DNA of 39,377 nt from a virus: IMG/VR virus record IMGVR_UViG_3300028388_006417, positions 1 to 39,377 of that record, one strand, 5' to 3'. Shown here in pieces: positions 17,776-25,062 of this stretch. The notes under the pieces are model-generated. The model was not told where the DNA came from and searched no databases. It saw only the letters and a program-made list of their open reading frames with translations. A program made the translations under genes and the position numbers. Within the stretch, counting starts at the first letter, position 1; each line of letters starts with the position of its first letter.

Positions 17776-18092
17776 CACAGCCTGATCGTTTCTTTCTGCA
17801 CGCCGAGTTGATCAATCAAAGATTTTGATAATAGATTGTCGAACAGATACGGTAGAAGATCTTTTAAATCACGCTCGACGTGAATTTGGTTGAGATCTCT
17901 TTCGCCGGGACGCCTGCTTTTGCCGGATATGACGAGAACATACTTGCGCGTATTTGTTTTGTATACGGCGAGCTCAGTCCAGCGACCACTGTTTCTTGCA
18001 CGCGTTCCTTCCTCGCTGGAAACAAAGGCAATCCGTTCGCCGGTAAACTCAACAGCAGGCGCGTCGGTTTGATCGATAATATAGGTTTTCAT
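17775..18092 (-). CDS. 105-residue protein downstream of polA, unknown
   Basis: The protein overlaps the polymerase stop by ATGA and is therefore co-translated with it. It is beta-rich at the N-terminus (KTYIIDQTDAPAVEFTGERI), has a KYVLVISGKSRRPGERDLNQ strand-turn and ends with helical DLLPYLFDNLLSKSLIDQLG. No family recognised; position suggests a replication accessory or regulator. Confidence 0.6.
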   Translation of the reverse strand: MKTYIIDQTDAPAVEFTGERIAFVSSEEGTRARNSGRWTELAVYKTNTRKYVLVISGKSRRPGERDLNQIHVERDLKDLLPYLFDNLLSKSLIDQLGVQKETIRL

Positions 18093-20872
18093 TTTACATT
18101 TCCCCAGTCTGTGCCGACTTCGCAGTCTACGAGAACTGGCACTCTCAAGATTATAGCCGAAGACATAATTTGGGTCAACTCCTTAAAACCGTCTGCTGAC
18201 TCTGCCGTTCCTGGATCTGAAAAGTCCAGCTCGTCATGGACAGTGACTACGGGATACCCAGTAGCATCAAAGACTCCCGCCTCATGCGCTTTCACCATTG
18301 CTTGTTTCATCAAGTCGGCAGCGCTGCCCTGTAGTCTCCTGTTCAATGCCTTGTGCGTAGCAAAGCGTTGAATATTACCTTTTCCATATTTCTCGCAGGC
18401 TTGTTCGTAAGGCAGCCCTTGCCGTGCTCCATTAGAGCGACCTTTTCTTTCCCACAAAGCGAACCGCGATCTGCGGCCCATAATGGTCTCGATGTAACCA
18501 TCTTTCAGCGCTTTGTCGGCAAAGTAGTCGAACGTGGCTTTTACAAACGGCACACCTTTGTGATAAGCGGCAAATAACTCTTCGGCTTCTCTTCGGCTGA
18601 GGCCAAGCGTCGCAGCGAGCTTGTCTTTGCCCATGCCATAACAGTTAGCTACTAAAACGCCTTCGCAAGTAAAGCGATGTCTAGGCCCTGCATTTAAGAT
18701 GTCGAACGTTTCCGCCGATTGAGTAGATTCTCTGATCGAGTAACCAAGCGTAAATTTTTTGGAGAATAGTTTCCGTCGTTGTCCGTCCGGTCGAAATCCA
18801 GAGCCAAGATATCGTCGTCTTTGAATTCTTCCAAAGCCCAGCGTATAAAGTGCTCTCGACTCTCGAACTCCACGGTTATCCCGCGGCCGTGATAGTTTTT
18901 GCTTGACACGTGTGTGGTTCTTTCGCATCGCTGAATCATCGAATCGTATCTCGCTCCCAGTGAATCGATAACCTGCACAGGTCGATTGAAGTATTTCCGT
19001 TTCTTGCATCGCTTGCACTTGTTTGTCTTTCCATTTCTTAAGTTGTATTCGTAAACGGTAAAGACTTCTCCGCAAAGTTTGCAGCGTACGTCCAGCATCA
19101 AATCGCCTCTTCCTTGACGACGCAGCGTATTCGGTTGAATCTCCAAGAAAGGTAGTTTTAATTGCTTCAGCATCGTTTCCCGTTCGGACAAGTCGAGAAA
19201 CCTCGGATGCTGCTTTCCAGAGCGGAACGAAGTCGAATTTCTTGCCATCGTACACAGCCACCTTGTGGTCCGGGGTTGCGGTTAGACCTTCGTAGGTCAT
19301 TATCTGCTTGATGCCTTTTGACACAACGCCATCGTGTTTGACCCAAGTCACGCCGTCCCACAAAAGGTCTGTGGTCAGAACTTGTTCGATTGGCACAGGC
19401 CCACGATTTGTGAGAACGCGCTGTCCTTTAGCGATGCAAAGTCCAAAGTTTATACCTTTGGTCGCCGTCCTCTTTAATTGCTTGCCCGACCTTTCAAGCA
19501 CGAGGTGTTGTGTGCTTTCGTGAAAGTCCGTTGACGGATCATTGCGGTACATTTCTCTCGCGCGCTCCGCTCCGTCTCCTACCGCATCATGCACCAGCAA
19601 CCGGTATTCGATCTGCGAGTAATCAAACTTTCTCCAGCACGAGTGACCTTCAAACGGAACAAACAACCCACGAATAAGCGGGCCAAGCTCAGGGTCTCTT
19701 GCTGGGATGTTTTGAAGGTTTGGGTCCGAGCTACTAAACCGACCCGACGCGGCGCCTCCGTCATCTTTTCTAAGCGGATGAAAAGAACAGTGGACTAGGC
19801 CGTCTACTTGCTTCTCAAGCAAGTAATTCTGAATAAAGGTAGTGGCTGCTTTGTGGTAACGTCGAGCAGACACTATATGCTGAGCGAGAGGATGGTCTTG
19901 CGATTCGAGCCATTGCTGAGTGAAAGACGGTTTATTAGTCTTAGCGGTAGTTGGATAAGATACGCCTACCGCATCAAACGCTAAGGCAAGTTCTTCCGCG
20001 CTGTGTATATTGACTTCCGCTCTGCCTGAAATCTGCTCGATAGCCTTTACGTGGAATGCTTCCTTTACTAGAAGTTCTTCAGTAGCAACTTCTGCTTTGT
20101 CCAAGTCAACACGCACTCCGGTCTGTCGCATTTTCAGAAGCAGAGGAATCAATGCGGATTCCATTTCAAATACGTCAAGCAAGTTTTCTTTGTGTAGCAG
20201 GTCGTACTGCTTCTTAAAAACTTCAATCGGCAATGCTGCATCTTGTTCCGCGTATGGACCGACAAGCTCTACAGGAGCGCGCCATATATTAGCGCGTTGC
20301 TTACCGTCTGGTGCTCCGCCATAGCTTGCTGCACACCACTCGTAAAGCTCGTTCGAGACCTTTCCCTCACCGCAATACTTCCGACCTAACGCTTCAAGCG
20401 AATAGGACAGCGCCCAATCGTCTAAAAGAGCTTCGGCAAACTGCACATCGTAGAGCTTGCCTTTGACTTCTACTCCGCTATCAGACAGCCATCCGCAATC
20501 GTAGAGCAGGTTTGCGCCTACCTTGACTTGTTTTTCATTACTAAGAGCGTCCGCCACAAAGCGAAGGACAGCATCGCGGTCTAGGTTTCCTCCTAAGTGG
20601 TGCGCTATTGGAAAGTACCACGACGCGTCTTCTGTGGCAAGTGAAATGCCGACAACATATCCGCTATTTCTGCTCCATCCTGGACCAGCCGTTGTCATTT
20701 CCGGGTCGTAGGTTTCCGTGTCGAACGCAATGACGGGCGTGTTAGAAAGATTCGGGAACTCTGTCGGCGGTTGCCAGCCAGTGGCCGGAATTGGCGCCAA
20801 AGGCCGTGATCCGCCTTTCATACCCCGAGCTCTTTTGTGCTCCTGCGTGTAGAAAAGACCTTGTTGAAACAT
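18089..20872 (-). CDS. polA: family A DNA polymerase interrupted by an intein
   Basis: The 927-residue precursor is a PolA-type replicase of about 662 residues plus a 265-residue intein. A DEDD 3'-5' exonuclease is intact: FDTET (Exo I), ANLLYD (Exo II) and YAEQD (Exo III). Polymerase motif A is DYSQIEYR and motif C is VHDEL. Motif B reads GINFGL, then the intein, then CYGMG, so splicing is needed for activity. The residue aligned to E. coli F762 is Phe. No 5'-nuclease domain is present. I start at ATG 20872, which overlaps the clamp stop as TAATG; the open frame continues upstream to 20905. Confidence 0.9.
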   Translation of the reverse strand: MFQQGLFYTQEHKRARGMKGGSRPLAPIPATGWQPPTEFPNLSNTPVIAFDTETYDPEMTTAGPGWSRNSGYVVGISLATEDASWYFPIAHHLGGNLDRDAVLRFVADALSNEKQVKVGANLLYDCGWLSDSGVEVKGKLYDVQFAEALLDDWALSYSLEALGRKYCGEGKVSNELYEWCAASYGGAPDGKQRANIWRAPVELVGPYAEQDAALPIEVFKKQYDLLHKENLLDVFEMESALIPLLLKMRQTGVRVDLDKAEVATEELLVKEAFHVKAIEQISGRAEVNIHSAEELALAFDAVGVSYPTTAKTNKPSFTQQWLESQDHPLAQHIVSARRYHKAATTFIQNYLLEKQVDGLVHCSFHPLRKDDGGAASGRFSSSDPNLQNIPARDPELGPLIRGLFVPFEGHSCWRKFDYSQIEYRLLVHDAVGDGAERAREMYRNDPSTDFHESTQHLVLERSGKQLKRTATKGINFGLCIAKGQRVLTNRGPVPIEQVLTTDLLWDGVTWVKHDGVVSKGIKQIMTYEGLTATPDHKVAVYDGKKFDFVPLWKAASEVSRLVRTGNDAEAIKTTFLGDSTEYAASSRKRRFDAGRTLQTLRRSLYRLRIQLKKWKDKQVQAMQETEILQSTCAGYRFTGSEIRFDDSAMRKNHTRVKQKLSRPRDNRGVRESRALYTLGFGRIQRRRYLGSGFRPDGQRRKLFSKKFTLGYSIRESTQSAETFDILNAGPRHRFTCEGVLVANCYGMGKDKLAATLGLSRREAEELFAAYHKGVPFVKATFDYFADKALKDGYIETIMGRRSRFALWERKGRSNGARQGLPYEQACEKYGKGNIQRFATHKALNRRLQGSAADLMKQAMVKAHEAGVFDATGYPVVTVHDELDFSDPGTAESADGFKELTQIMSSAIILRVPVLVDCEVGTDWGNVK
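18644..19438 (-). mobile_element. intein in polymerase motif B
   Basis: The insert runs from Cys1 (CIAKGQRVLTNRGPVPIEQV, block A) through block B (LTATPDHKVAVYDG) to the C-terminal splicing blocks (ETFDILNAGPRHRFTCEGV, then LVAN). It is followed by Cys+1 of the C-extein (CYGMGK). All splice-junction residues are present: Cys1, block-B TxxH, penultimate region ending in Asn, and +1 Cys; the usual penultimate His is replaced by Ala. The 265 residues exceed a mini-intein, but the middle 170 residues in this frame are basic and match no endonuclease. The endonuclease lies in the +1 frame instead. Confidence 0.88.
18694..19173 (-). CDS. HNH homing endonuclease nested out of frame in the intein
   Basis: This 159-residue protein is read in the +1 frame relative to the polymerase/intein. 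It has an N-terminal CxxC...CxxC zinc domain (CKLCGEVF and CKRCKKRKY) and a family-typical HNH region: YDSMIQRCE, NYHGRGITVEF, LDFDRTDNDGNYSPKN and LRLVTRSENLLNRRKR. It spans exactly the gap between intein blocks B and F, where an in-frame homing endonuclease usually sits. The frame is open up to 19248 (an earlier ATG); I chose the ATG at 19173, just before LKQLKLPFLEIQPN. Translation would need internal initiation or frameshifting. Confidence 0.82.
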   Translation of the reverse strand: MLKQLKLPFLEIQPNTLRRQGRGDLMLDVRCKLCGEVFTVYEYNLRNGKTNKCKRCKKRKYFNRPVQVIDSLGARYDSMIQRCERTTHVSSKNYHGRGITVEFESREHFIRWALEEFKDDDILALDFDRTDNDGNYSPKNLRLVTRSENLLNRRKRSTS

Positions 20873-21852
20873 TACTTGAGTCCCACCATAACGCCGACAA
20901 AACAATCGCCTTTGAATCGAGCAGGCTGGGAGAACAAGTCGGCGTGGGTAGCGTTCTTTAGAGTCCTCGTGATGTGCCCAGCTCGGTAGTTTCCTCTGCC
21001 TACCTGTTCGCTCTCGACTTCAGCAGAGGTGTTCCCTTCAACTGTGGAAAGACCTTTTTCAGTTAAAGAAATCACTTGAGTTGCCGAGTCTTCGCAGAAG
21101 ACAGACAAAGCTTTCACATCATCACGAAGTGTTTGCTGAAGCTCAAACTCATCGCCTAAATCAAAAGCCAGCATGTCAGGAATGGTTTCCGGCCATTGCT
21201 CGTCGATCATTGGCGAGCTCAGCCATGCGGTATCGTAACCAAAGATTATTTGATTATCGCTCACATCCAAGAATGTTGGAAAAACATCGTTGTTCTTTAC
21301 GATTACTCCGACCGTATAGACTGGAACGATGATGGGGGTTTCAATCGGAAGAGGAAGGTCGTATCGAATGAGTGTTGTGTTGTTAGTGGCGTACGCGTAT
21401 TTACCATCGAGCATAATACCGCAAGACCACAGCGCGGTTCTTCCAGCTTCACCAATAAAGGGGAGCAAAGTAGTAAATGCGTCGATGAGCTGCTCCCCAT
21501 TGTCGATGACGTTAGAATGCTCTGGCGCCGCTACAGCGGGGTACTGGTCGAGCTTGCCGCCCGGGACCATTTGAACTTTCAGGGAGCCTCGCTTGATTAC
21601 GAGTCTCTTGTTGAAAGAGATGTTCAACTCATCGCGGTTTAGTGTGTACGCTTTGATGAACTTAGATGCAGGGACTATCACCTCTAGCTCTCCAAGCTGA
21701 GGATCGTCGCTCATCGCTCCGGCAGTGATCTTGCCGTCGCTTACCTGAATCATGCCGTTATCGATGTAGATATTGGCAAGAATAGGATTGAGCGGTTTTT
21801 CAGTGACTACACGACTGAGAAATTCGAGTTGCTGAACAGTTGTTGCAGACAT
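20872..21852 (-). CDS. DNA polymerase sliding clamp-like protein
   Basis: The 326-residue protein resembles phage beta-clamp-like proteins. Supporting segments are LEFLSRVVTEKPLNPILANI, IYIDNGMIQVSDGKI, EVIVPASKFIKAY and GRTALWSCGIMLDGKYAYAT. They give the repeated strand-helix units of DnaN-like clamps, though similarity to bacterial DnaN is low. It would tether the polymerase to DNA. Both neighbours support this: it starts on the last base of the dpdA stop and its own stop overlaps the polymerase start (TAATG). The alternative is an unrelated replication accessory protein. Confidence 0.68.
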   Translation of the reverse strand: MSATTVQQLEFLSRVVTEKPLNPILANIYIDNGMIQVSDGKITAGAMSDDPQLGELEVIVPASKFIKAYTLNRDELNISFNKRLVIKRGSLKVQMVPGGKLDQYPAVAAPEHSNVIDNGEQLIDAFTTLLPFIGEAGRTALWSCGIMLDGKYAYATNNTTLIRYDLPLPIETPIIVPVYTVGVIVKNNDVFPTFLDVSDNQIIFGYDTAWLSSPMIDEQWPETIPDMLAFDLGDEFELQQTLRDDVKALSVFCEDSATQVISLTEKGLSTVEGNTSAEVESEQVGRGNYRAGHITRTLKNATHADLFSQPARFKGDCFVGVMVGLK

Positions 21853-22730
21853 TAGAAAAGAGTCGCCTGTCGAAGTTGAGGGAGACGTTCCGGAGCGTAT
21901 TGCTCAAATTGTTTAAACGTCGGGATGTTGAAAAAACCTCTGTTCAATGGATGTTCAATGCACGCCTCGATAGTAGTGCCCCTTTCGATGGCAAGTTGCC
22001 GAATAAATTCCTGCGTACCTTTGTCAAGATACCGCCAGTGCGGGGAGTCAAACTTATCCGCGGTCGGGTTCTCTTCGGTGACAGAAACTGCGTACAACTC
22101 AGAACCGTTAATGTACGCAAGCTTGCCCATTGCGCCTGTCCAGACCCACGAAGTTGAATCCACGTAGGTCCACGGGTAGCGCTTTATGACTTGCAACCCT
22201 GTGAGAGCAAAGCCGTGCACTTCGACCTTCGGCTTTCCTTCCTCATCGGCGATGATGTCCCAGCAGGCATCGAGCCACTCATACAGCGGCGGTCCTGACC
22301 CAAGTTGTGCAACACCTCCAAGACCAATTAACGGCGCCTCTTGGACAAGAGTCTCAAGAAAGTCGAAAGGTTCGCTATAGTGGAACGTCGGAAACACATC
22401 GGCGCCTTGTTCTCGCTGCCATCGATAGTTCTTGTAAGAGGCATCTGCGTCACCAATGACGTCGAGTGCAGCTATCAGAGAATGCTTATCGCGATGCTTG
22501 ATACAGTACTCAGTCAACAGGTGAATGTCGATAGTCTTGTTCTGCGTGAACGCCGAGAACGCTCCACTATCAAGAAACACCGTATTGCCCTGATCTAAGG
22601 ACAGCATAATGCTCTTGTGTGGCTCAAGAGTTTTAGGGTTGCACGGCGAATAGAAAAACGTTAGCAGCTGACTGCCGAGCAGATGGCCGAGCCGCCCGTT
22701 GTAGTAATCGCCTGAGAAGTAAAGTTTCAT
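21852..22730 (-). CDS. dpdA: DpdA: DNA guanine transglycosylase for 7-deazaguanine
   Basis: The 292-residue protein is a TGT-like TIM barrel of the phage DpdA type. Hallmarks in order are FLDSGAFSAF (Asp54), AALDVIGDA (Asp90), FPTFHYSEP, IGLGGVAQLG, VEVHGFALTG and VDSTSWVWTG (Asp191, a candidate nucleophile). DpdA exchanges guanine in DNA for a 7-deazaguanine base, which protects phage DNA from restriction. It lacks the zinc domain of tRNA TGTs. Coupling to the clamp and polymerase genes fits post-replicative modification at the fork. I cannot assign it to a DpdA subfamily by eye. Confidence 0.87.
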   Translation of the reverse strand: MKLYFSGDYYNGRLGHLLGSQLLTFFYSPCNPKTLEPHKSIMLSLDQGNTVFLDSGAFSAFTQNKTIDIHLLTEYCIKHRDKHSLIAALDVIGDADASYKNYRWQREQGADVFPTFHYSEPFDFLETLVQEAPLIGLGGVAQLGSGPPLYEWLDACWDIIADEEGKPKVEVHGFALTGLQVIKRYPWTYVDSTSWVWTGAMGKLAYINGSELYAVSVTEENPTADKFDSPHWRYLDKGTQEFIRQLAIERGTTIEACIEHPLNRGFFNIPTFKQFEQYAPERLPQLRQATLF

Positions 22731-22791: not shown

Positions 22792-23811
22792 TCAACTCTC
22801 GAACAACGACATCTGGCGCCTGTCCTCGGTCTTGGGCGCCTTCCACTTCTCCTCTTTGATACCGAGATATTTGCGGTCGTTACGCCAGACTTTGTAGAAC
22901 ATCACGCGGTTTGCCATCTCCCCCTTGGGCCACTCGCCGAAGTGAGCGCGGTACTGGGTAATGTGCTTTCGGCCCAAGCGGTAAACCAATGGATCGAACT
23001 CATCGAGCACCATGGTCTCTTCAATGGTGCCCTTTGCCCCTTTCGGCGGATAGGTGAGAGTGTCGCCTTCATTGTAAGGGAAAACGGTGCCACAAAGCGG
23101 GCGAGCGCGCTTCTTGAGGTTCCAGCTATTGGTGGAGCACACGATAGGGCAAGCGAGATCAAACCGCGCGGCCATCTTCAGCCGCTCCATCCAATCCTCG
23201 CCGCCGCCGTAGCCGAAGTCAGTGACAATATGCTCGCCGGTCTCGGGGTCCTTTTTCTTGATGGGGTAGGAGGCCACGCCGAACTTGATCATGCTGACAA
23301 CCAGGTCAGGGGAACCGAGCGCGATGTGGTACCAGACCGGGGAGCTGTAAGCTTCCCAGCAGAACAGCACGCCCGCGCGGACGCCCTTGACTTCAATCGG
23401 CGTGATTCGATTCCTGTAATCCGTTTCGGGCGAAACCCGCATCTTGCCTTTGGCTTCAATGTGGTCATACCCCGGCAAGTGGATCTTGTCCTGATAGCCC
23501 GTCATGCCGTGTTCCGGGTCAATCCCATAGATGCGTTCGCGCACCTGATCCAGCACGCGGTCCTTGATCAAGGCCCCGAAATAAAAACCGACATCATGCT
23601 TGCGTGCCAGCTCCAGCATTGGCTCAATGACCTCTTCTTCATGGTAGTGAAGAGGTTCACCGGTTTCGTAGTAAAGGTTCTGGATTCCTCCAAACAGTTC
23701 TTGAGGAGTAACGAAGATGTCTGGTTTGAACTCTTCGCACTTGCTGTCAAGCCATTTGATCTTGTCAGCAAGCGAGAAGCGCTGTTCGGGAACGCAGGAA
23801 AGTATTCTCAT
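22792..23811 (-). CDS. nitrilase-superfamily carbon-nitrogen hydrolase
   Basis: The 339-residue protein has the Glu-Lys-Cys triad of the nitrilase fold: Glu38 in FVTPQELFGG, Lys109 in YQDKIHLPG and Cys151 in AGVLFCWEAYSS. The family hydrolyses nitriles or amides, or uses amides as nitrogen donors. In this operon the natural substrates are the nitrile PreQ0 or its amide, either free or in DNA, so it could make the 7-amido or 7-carboxy base. That role is inference; an unrelated amidase role is possible. It lies 61 bases upstream of dpdA and 31 bases after the unknown gene. Confidence 0.75.
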   Translation of the reverse strand: MRILSCVPEQRFSLADKIKWLDSKCEEFKPDIFVTPQELFGGIQNLYYETGEPLHYHEEEVIEPMLELARKHDVGFYFGALIKDRVLDQVRERIYGIDPEHGMTGYQDKIHLPGYDHIEAKGKMRVSPETDYRNRITPIEVKGVRAGVLFCWEAYSSPVWYHIALGSPDLVVSMIKFGVASYPIKKKDPETGEHIVTDFGYGGGEDWMERLKMAARFDLACPIVCSTNSWNLKKRARPLCGTVFPYNEGDTLTYPPKGAKGTIEETMVLDEFDPLVYRLGRKHITQYRAHFGEWPKGEMANRVMFYKVWRNDRKYLGIKEEKWKAPKTEDRRQMSLFES

Positions 23812-23842: not shown

Positions 23843-24196
23843 TCATGGAAAAAGATTCAGCGCGAGGTGTCTTTCCTCTTGTTCTTGTCTTCGCTTTTCT
23901 TCTTCGATCAGTTTTTTCATCTCCGTTTCCGACAGGTTTTTCTTGCTCTTTGCGAAATGAATCATCCGCTCAAACCACAAACTGGGGACATACGATCTGA
24001 TTACGGCGAGAGCAGAAACAAGTCGAATCAATGCTCTGGCTTGCCTGTGCATTGTCCTGTAATGCTTTTCGGCAATTTCATTTCCGTACTGCTCACGGAG
24101 TGCTGAAATAATTGCATCAGGAGTAACGAACTCTTCGTAAATTGCGTTATGTGCTTCAGCCATCAATCCGACCCAGGTTTCGTCATTGCTTTTCAT
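23843..24196 (-). CDS. 117-residue helical protein in the deazaguanine operon
   Basis: The protein overlaps the PRTase-FolE stop by ATGA. It is mostly helical: an N-terminal half with WVGLMAEAHNAIYEEFVTPD, a central hydrophobic helix (ALIRLVSALAVIRSYVPSLW) and a highly charged coiled-coil end (MKKLIEEEKRRQEQEER). No family recognised. Its location between folE and the nitrilase suggests an accessory role in the modification pathway. Confidence 0.6.
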   Translation of the reverse strand: MKSNDETWVGLMAEAHNAIYEEFVTPDAIISALREQYGNEIAEKHYRTMHRQARALIRLVSALAVIRSYVPSLWFERMIHFAKSKKNLSETEMKKLIEEEKRRQEQEERHLALNLFP

Positions 24197-25062
24197 TTGC
24201 CAATTAACCTCATGAACTCCGCTCGAGCGGAAGGATTAGTGAGCATGACCCCGCGCATAGCGGAGGTCGTGGTGAGTGCGCCGGAATGACGAACGCCCCG
24301 AGATTCCACGCACATATGCCTTGCTTCGATGACGACTGCAACGCCTTTCGGATGCAGGTTGTCATCGAGAGCTGAAGCGATTTGATTAGTCAGACGCTCT
24401 TGCACCTGGAGTCGGCGCGCAAAGCAGTCAACTACGCGGTTGAGCTTAGAAAGGCCAACGATGCGGCCGTTGGGAATGTAACCGACGTGCGCCACGCCTG
24501 TAATTGCGGCGAGGTGGTGTTCGCAATGCGAGTAGACAGGAATACTAGACTCAATGATCAGTTCGTCGTAGTTTTCGGCGCCGTCGTTGAACTCCTTCAG
24601 AATAGTCTTAGGGTCTTCGGTGTACCCTTTGGTCCAATACTTCCAAGCTTTGATAACGCGGGCGGGAGTTTCTAGCAGCCCTTCACGGGTCGGGTCCTCT
24701 CCGACAATTTGCAGCAGCCGACGAATTGCATCTGTCTCGGCACCTTCGTTTTCTTCCCATGGGAATTGAACAAAAGGGTCCCCGGGCTTTCGTTCAAAAG
24801 CCGCCATAAAACGCGCGTTCGGGAACTCTTTTTCAAACCGACGTTTGGTTGCGCCGCTATCGATAATATCGTCGACAATGACTTTTGCCTGCTCCGGCGA
24901 ATTCGTTATGATAAAGTCACTGCTGAAAGACCGCATCATGTACGCGATAGACACACCGCCTCTTGGAACACCGTACACGTGTATAGGACCTGGAATAGCA
25001 AGCGACCGCACGATGTTCGCTACTGCCGAGAAGACTTCTTCGTGGGTTATTTTCTTGATCAT
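24193..25062 (-). CDS. folE: phosphoribosyltransferase-FolE fusion (GTP cyclohydrolase I)
   Basis: The 289-residue protein has two domains. Residues 1-104 are a compact type I phosphoribosyltransferase: VPRGGVSIAYMM, the PRPP motif VIVDDIIDSGATKR (61-73) and a DPFVQFPWE end typical of purine PRTases. Residues 107-289 are a complete GTP cyclohydrolase I with zinc ligands Cys180 and His183 (SHCEHHL) and Cys251 (HMCVESRGV). FolE makes dihydroneopterin triphosphate, the first intermediate of the 7-deazaguanine pathway. The PRTase might recycle guanine released by DpdA into GMP, which is inference. The gene overlaps queE by ATGA. Confidence 0.85.
   Translation of the reverse strand: MIKKITHEEVFSAVANIVRSLAIPGPIHVYGVPRGGVSIAYMMRSFSSDFIITNSPEQAKVIVDDIIDSGATKRRFEKEFPNARFMAAFERKPGDPFVQFPWEENEGAETDAIRRLLQIVGEDPTREGLLETPARVIKAWKYWTKGYTEDPKTILKEFNDGAENYDELIIESSIPVYSHCEHHLAAITGVAHVGYIPNGRIVGLSKLNRVVDCFARRLQVQERLTNQIASALDDNLHPKGVAVVIEARHMCVESRGVRHSGALTTTSAMRGVMLTNPSARAEFMRLIGK

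Follow-up and report, generated by a model that had tools for sequence, protein, structure and literature searches.

The window analysed here is the complete 39,377 nucleotides (nt) of IMG/VR virus record IMGVR_UViG_3300028388_006417. Its minus strand encodes a family-A DNA polymerase I (polA) whose precursor contains an intein, and the middle of the intein coding sequence also holds, in the +1 reading frame, an open reading frame (ORF) for an HNH homing endonuclease (Table 1). The polA ORF, 18089-20905(-), continues without interruption across the intein. We found the arrangement not to be singular: it belongs to a widespread family in which the endonuclease lies in one of two alternative frames. 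All evidence presented is computational.

The polymerase precursor matches DNA_pol_A (E 4.6e-59) and DNA_pol_A_exo1 (E 6e-8). The intein is inserted at polymerase motif B, directly after ...KGINFGL, with its Cys1 codon at 19438, and ends at Asn265 (18644-18646), which is followed by the +1 Cys (18641-18643) and ...YGMG. Its blocks read CIAKGQRVLT (A), TPDH (B), FDILNAGPRHRF (F) and VLVAN followed by the +1 C (G), so that the N-terminal Cys and TxxH, blocks F and G, the terminal Asn and the +1 Cys of a class 1 intein are all present. T55, D57 and H58 of block B are invariant in 31 aligned inteins, and D246 and N265 are invariant in the aligned inteins (alignments A8 and A10). An AlphaFold model of the intein has predicted local distance difference test (pLDDT) values of ∼97 at residues 1-60 and 241-265 and near 90 until residue 90, the two ends spanning ∼88-98; residues ∼91-240 fall mostly below 60, with the exception of one helix. 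The top PDB matches of the model are all intein or Hint proteins (NpuDnaE, Prp8, AceL and hedgehog, probability 0.99-1.00), placing the predicted structure in the Hint fold. A search with the intein-frame middle returned no relatives, as expected of a passenger that is not conserved. A first reading of the DNA from the sequence alone (the sequence-only reading) had described clear splicing blocks around an in-frame middle free of endonuclease, and both parts of this description held: every block was found intact, and the middle is unconserved and mostly disordered in the model.

Table 1. Features of the polA intein locus in the window.
Feature	Position	Strand	Details
Family-A DNA polymerase I precursor ORF, with exo domain	18089..20905	minus	938 codons, intein included
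polA intein, 265 aa	18644..19438	minus	splicing blocks aligned with 34 relatives; AlphaFold model
Intein N-terminal splicing region, blocks A and B	19169..19438	minus	C1, T55-x-D57-H58; alignments A8/A10
Intein C-terminal splicing region, blocks F and G	18644..18733	minus	Asn265 last; alignments A8/A10
Intein passenger stretch	18734..19168	minus	readable in frame, unconserved, mostly predicted disordered
HNH homing endonuclease ORF, 184 aa	18694..19248	minus	+1 frame of intein; stop codon 18694-18696
Zinc ribbon of HNH protein	19006..19083	minus	C56, C59, C78, C81; invariant in 39 aligned relatives
HNH nuclease core	18718..18894	minus	Y119 R122 G123 ... D153 R154 ... Y161 ... N165 R167 ... N174 N177; (nearly) invariant in 39 relatives
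Shine-Dalgarno (SD)-like AAGGTGG	19258..19264	minus	9 nt upstream of ATG 19246-19248; duplex energy -7.4
Alternative SD-like AAGGAAGAGG	19106..19115	minus	7 nt before ATG 19096-19098, giving a shorter HNH product
Additional in-frame ATG of HNH ORF	19171-19173	minus	
Main start place of many +1 relatives (SD AAAGGAGGT and ATG)	19291..19293	minus	window reads ACG

The HNH ORF matches PHROG 374 'HNH endonuclease' (E 8.5e-28); its Pfam HNH_3 match (E 0.008) fails the cut-off. Membership of the HNH family is seen in the intact zinc ribbon and HNH core. The AlphaFold model of the protein has a pLDDT of 87, and its fold matches in BFVD are viral and phage HNH endonucleases; a Foldseek search of the model against PDB returned no match. 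The zinc-ribbon HNH in the +1 frame thus stands as first described, with two corrections. The ORF does not end before block F as had been stated, since its stop codon is placed just inside the block F codons, and it probably starts at 19248 rather than at 19173.

Tblastn searches of phage records found the same HNH in polymerase inteins of Salmonella, Pseudomonas, Streptococcus, Gardnerella and Caulobacter phages, and at each of the first eight loci the HNH was out of frame (+1 or +2) with the intein frame open. Viral contigs and bacterial genomes were then scanned with HNH and intein N block patterns, supplemented by profile searches. The scan patterns were peptides applied to both strands, with no frame relation favoured. 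The intein set comprises 261 non-identical members, 213 of which have both splicing blocks in a single ORF together with an HNH; because these 213 include related sequences, the counts below are not counts of independent events. The HNH is in the +1 frame relative to the intein in 141 and in the +2 frame in 72. An in-frame HNH, the finding that by the sequence-only reading's own account would have spoken against it, was sought among all 213 and found in none (0/213). Thirty-six further inteins have no HNH. Of 249 inteins, 232 have hosts in a single connected polymerase-like group, with several motif-B and downstream insertion sites; 13 are inserted in a DEAD/ResIII helicase, one in an SNF2-type helicase and three in a further gene without an assigned name. 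As in the window, the host ORF is whole across the 213. Cys1 is present in 213/213, and the terminal Asn and a +1 Cys, Ser or Thr each in 212/213. A mixed alignment of the intein N blocks yielded no conserved stretch, and split alignments (A3 and A4) were used instead. The HNH stop lies inside the intein in 181/213 and most others end 19-58 nt into the C-extein; one of the remainder, L267, is masked sequence. We also observed a single polymerase gene (L069, 2212-4419) that holds two distinct inteins with out-of-frame HNH. In two others, L270 and L308, the same polA contains a second, upstream intein whose N half meets an early stop; the C block of L270 is in another frame with no HNH between the halves, leaving this intein split or frameshifted. 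The predicted viral protein A0A1L7DRS1 of Salmonella phage LPSE1 resembles the HNH.

Both reading frames have been maintained. None of the 213 inteins has a stop codon in the intein frame over the length of the HNH, compared with ∼2,000 stops in the third frame. When HNH codons were shuffled synonymously, the expected number of intein-frame stops per intein was 7.6 in the +1 class and 2.2 in the +2 class. HNH loci lacking an intein N block had any alternative frame open over the same stretch in only 3 of 39 cases. In the window the overlap contains no intein-frame stops; 500 synonymous shuffles gave a mean of 8.1, and none (0/500) was open, so that the chance of ∼3 in 10,000 first estimated for the open frame is if anything generous. 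Between close pairs, the median ratio of nonsynonymous to synonymous substitution rates (dN/dS) is 0.08 (+1) and 0.11 (+2) for the HNH frame, and 1.98 (+1) and 1.76 (+2) for the intein frame. Differences in the N block fall at intein third positions; the change to HNH third positions comes ∼150 nt upstream of the zinc ribbon in the +1 class and ∼120 nt upstream of it in the +2 class, and in the C block the differences are again at intein third positions. Purifying selection on the HNH frame is therefore strong, and all 213 inteins keep the intein frame free of stops. The dN/dS values and the third-position switch argue that both the HNH protein and the splicing blocks are functional, and the same substitution patterns suggest that selection on the central part of the intein polypeptide acts essentially against stops alone. 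The checks proposed with the first reading agree: searched separately, the HNH frame has many relatives and the intein middle none, and the synonymous-site signal changes frame across the overlap.

The start of the HNH in the window is likely the ATG at 19246-19248, to judge from the SD-like site upstream of it and from relatives L092 and L098, whose HNH starts at the equivalent place. Among the 141 inteins of the +1 class, 95 have a start codon, mostly ATG, at a single alignment column, and the frame is open from this column to the HNH in 90 of the 95. The column overlaps the intein residues Y-D/E-G, and the upstream K-E-V-I codons give AAAGGAGGT-like SD sites. The SD energy there averages -10.7, compared with -7.9 in synonymous shuffles, and the Tyr codons at the start are TAT:TAC 96:23, compared with 313:520 in the exteins. 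The ACG in the window indicates that the start used by many +1 relatives has been lost there. An ATG at alignment column 116, in the region of window position 19173, is conserved and has no SD; an SD scan over all start codons gave a weak signal.

Could the HNH instead be made as a fusion, with ribosomes leaving the polymerase/intein frame by programmed frameshifting? In the HNH frame, the open stretch often starts upstream, within the N block, and the SD evidence of the +2 class is weak, as such a mechanism would allow. We nevertheless regard it as improbable. A single family would need two opposite shifts (+1 and +2/-1), and the SD sites and start codons of the +1 class are conserved beyond amino-acid need. 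Moreover, in 30/141 members of this class the HNH frame is interrupted by a stop after the main start column and ahead of the HNH, so that a frameshift in these would have to lie downstream of the stop.

A second alternative is a selfish HNH insertion that does not splice, remaining in the polymerase or being removed as RNA. Such elements exist: the ShiLan domain, or Pacc40 insertion, is an out-of-frame HNH in phage DNA methylases, in which the host ORF reads through without stops, splicing blocks are absent and the insert is thought to remain in the protein (Arsenault, Gosselin and Gogarten 2025, PMC11855218). No ribosome binding site was found for it and leaderless initiation was proposed (PMC11855218). 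The polA intein family resembles ShiLan in its stop-free host ORF and in having the HNH in another frame, but differs in its conserved splicing blocks and, in many members, an SD and ATG; with a splicing domain present, the window copy is not of the ShiLan type, which has none. Splicing is here predicted from sequence, which leaves this alternative some room, but we hold it to be very unlikely given the conservation of Cys1, TxxH, blocks F and G, the Asn and the +1 nucleophile, a modelled Hint fold with only inteins and Hint proteins as top PDB matches, and HNH-less mini-inteins (111-188 aa) at the same sites, in which the splicing blocks are retained. An Rfam search of 17900-21000 gave no match up to E 1 and no group I intron, and we rejected an RNA intron on this basis.

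The idea that the arrangement reflects faulty sequencing or assembly, or is what remains of an ordinary in-frame HNH intein after a frameshift, has next to no chance of being correct: a few broken copies do exist, but the arrangement recurs in 213 inteins with none in frame, both frames are under selection, and the HNH tree shows a single change of frame class. The broken copies, one in a phage record of IMG/VR (L027) and one in the Eubacterium plexicaudatum chromosome (L329), have N-block frameshifts and are probably errors or decaying copies. For the window copy, error would take two compensating indels, as the sequence-only reading had noted, and is excluded by more than 200 relatives with the same arrangement; an in-frame ancestor among the relatives surveyed was likewise rejected (0/213), as was a relic ORF, given the selection on the HNH frame.

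Occupied and empty sites occur side by side in close relatives. In Jersey- and Kagunaviruses, a query made by joining the two polymerase flanks matches 343 records; in 186 of these a single place covers at least 80% of the query, as expected of an empty site, with 81-94% identity among the matches listed. Other close relatives in these groups, with flanks up to 99% identical, are split by the intein. This pattern is consistent with homing. Relatives of the window's own polymerase also have an empty site, for example Variovorax phage VPv64 (58% identity). On a tree of 166 nested and 33 free-standing HNH proteins (near-copies thinned), many forks are unresolved and the +1/+2 label changes once; read in this way, the frame class is old and stable, and the tree suggests very few founding insertions. 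HNH-less mini-inteins occupy the same polA site in L254, L255, L298, L300, L323 and others, and several retain remnants of the HNH start region, which suggests recent deletion. In an upstream polA intein of three loci (L228, L199 and L241) the N half stops, the HNH forms an ORF of its own, and the C half opens another (e.g. MKSNNFKHVYDIANAG in L228). Because L199 and L241 are near-copies, these represent two independent cases. By analogy with fractured genes, they look like the next evolutionary step.

We conclude, with a probability of about 0.9, that the element is a mobile intein in which two coding layers are superimposed, the polymerase/intein and a separately translated, out-of-frame HNH. 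The conclusion draws on the two frames and the selection on each, on the start signals in relatives, and on the occupied and empty sites. A complete HNH gene would have entered a mini-intein out of frame. In the first layer ribosomes would read the polymerase ORF from end to end; the N and C blocks would then associate into a fold that removes the intein and ligates the two parts of the polymerase, and what lies between these blocks would be a tolerated passenger loop selected only for absence of stop codons. In the second layer the HNH gene, with its own start and stop, would be expressed by internal initiation on the polymerase mRNA. The free HNH protein may then cut intein-less polA alleles of co-infecting phages, with repair copying the whole intein, so that splicing would rescue the host protein and homing would spread the element. 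Since the stop of a self-contained gene would truncate an essential ORF if placed in frame, an out-of-frame position would be the one that survives while splicing is needed.

Several points weigh against this conclusion. Splicing, HNH expression, cleavage and homing are predictions, homing being drawn from the comparison of presence and absence. The penultimate residue of the window intein is Ala, and the usual His is absent; across the 213 the residue is His in 177, Ser in 28 and Ala in 3. The penultimate His is usual but not obligatory, and some other known inteins are without it. The same SD and TAT codon are retained in 25/31 HNH-less mini-inteins, so that part of the start signal may reflect amino-acid constraint or recent HNH loss. 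In the +2 class SD signals are weak or ambiguous.

The textbook intein consists of a splicing domain and an in-frame endonuclease in one polypeptide. In HNH inteins of this kind, such as the Synechocystis GyrB intein, the endonuclease is within the intein polypeptide. The family described here is like them in that the HNH interrupts the splicing domain between blocks B and F, but the endonuclease is predicted to be a separate product of another frame, and the canonical arrangement is seen in 0/213. In the fractured genes that Dassa et al. 2009 reportedly describe, a homing endonuclease gene stands on its own between the two parts of a split intein, and the host gene consists of two ORFs joined by trans-splicing. 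They share with this family an endonuclease that is its own gene between two intein halves, but here the host ORF is whole and continuous and the gene is not split. Group I introns with HNH ORFs (I-HmuI type) likewise place a self-contained endonuclease gene in a self-removing element of an essential phage gene, but removal here is predicted at the protein level and not that of RNA.

The sequence-only reading had known of no described out-of-frame nested case. ShiLan had already been published, so this was too broad; it stands for elements with splicing domains in so far as our literature search for out-of-frame endonucleases in true inteins turned up only ShiLan and one genome announcement. 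PMC11855218 cites a 2025 bioRxiv preprint on actinobacteriophage inteins of 'non-canonical architecture' with overlapping frames (Gosselin, Arsenault and Gogarten, 10.1101/2025.01.02.630785), and Gorbalenya 1998, 'Non-canonical inteins', for overlapping reading frames. As cited there, both may describe related inteins and so overlap with this finding. We put at roughly even odds the proposition that these elements form a large undescribed intein class, in which the HNH is always in an overlapping frame, the SD lies inside splicing-domain codons, two frame classes are stable, and fractured genes with split inteins are the evolutionary neighbour.

Elsewhere in the window, 21852-22730 and 24193-25062 hold queuine tRNA-ribosyltransferase-like and GTP cyclohydrolase genes, which suggest 7-deazaguanine modification of the phage DNA. 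A 339-aa ORF at 22792-23811 has no PHROG match and no tblastn match among 50,697 phage records.

The recurrence of one design in more than 200 related inteins, none of them in frame, points to a real and overlooked way to pack a selfish gene. With the two products separated on the same DNA, the regulation and dose of the endonuclease could be set independently, and the host protein would also be lost to most HNH-layer mutations that create a stop or shift the frame. In the Jerseyvirus NC_023608 (L001) the annotation records an intein with splicing domains only, and the overlapping 248-codon HNH-frame stretch is unannotated. Many annotated phage polymerases, those of common Salmonella Jerseyviruses among them, conceal an endonuclease gene that is missing from the annotation. 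As a natural system of overlapping genes the family is clean, with an abrupt change of frame; it suggests a route by which an HNH gene may colonise a mini-intein, and it provides a plausible intermediate between nested inteins and split-intein fractured genes.
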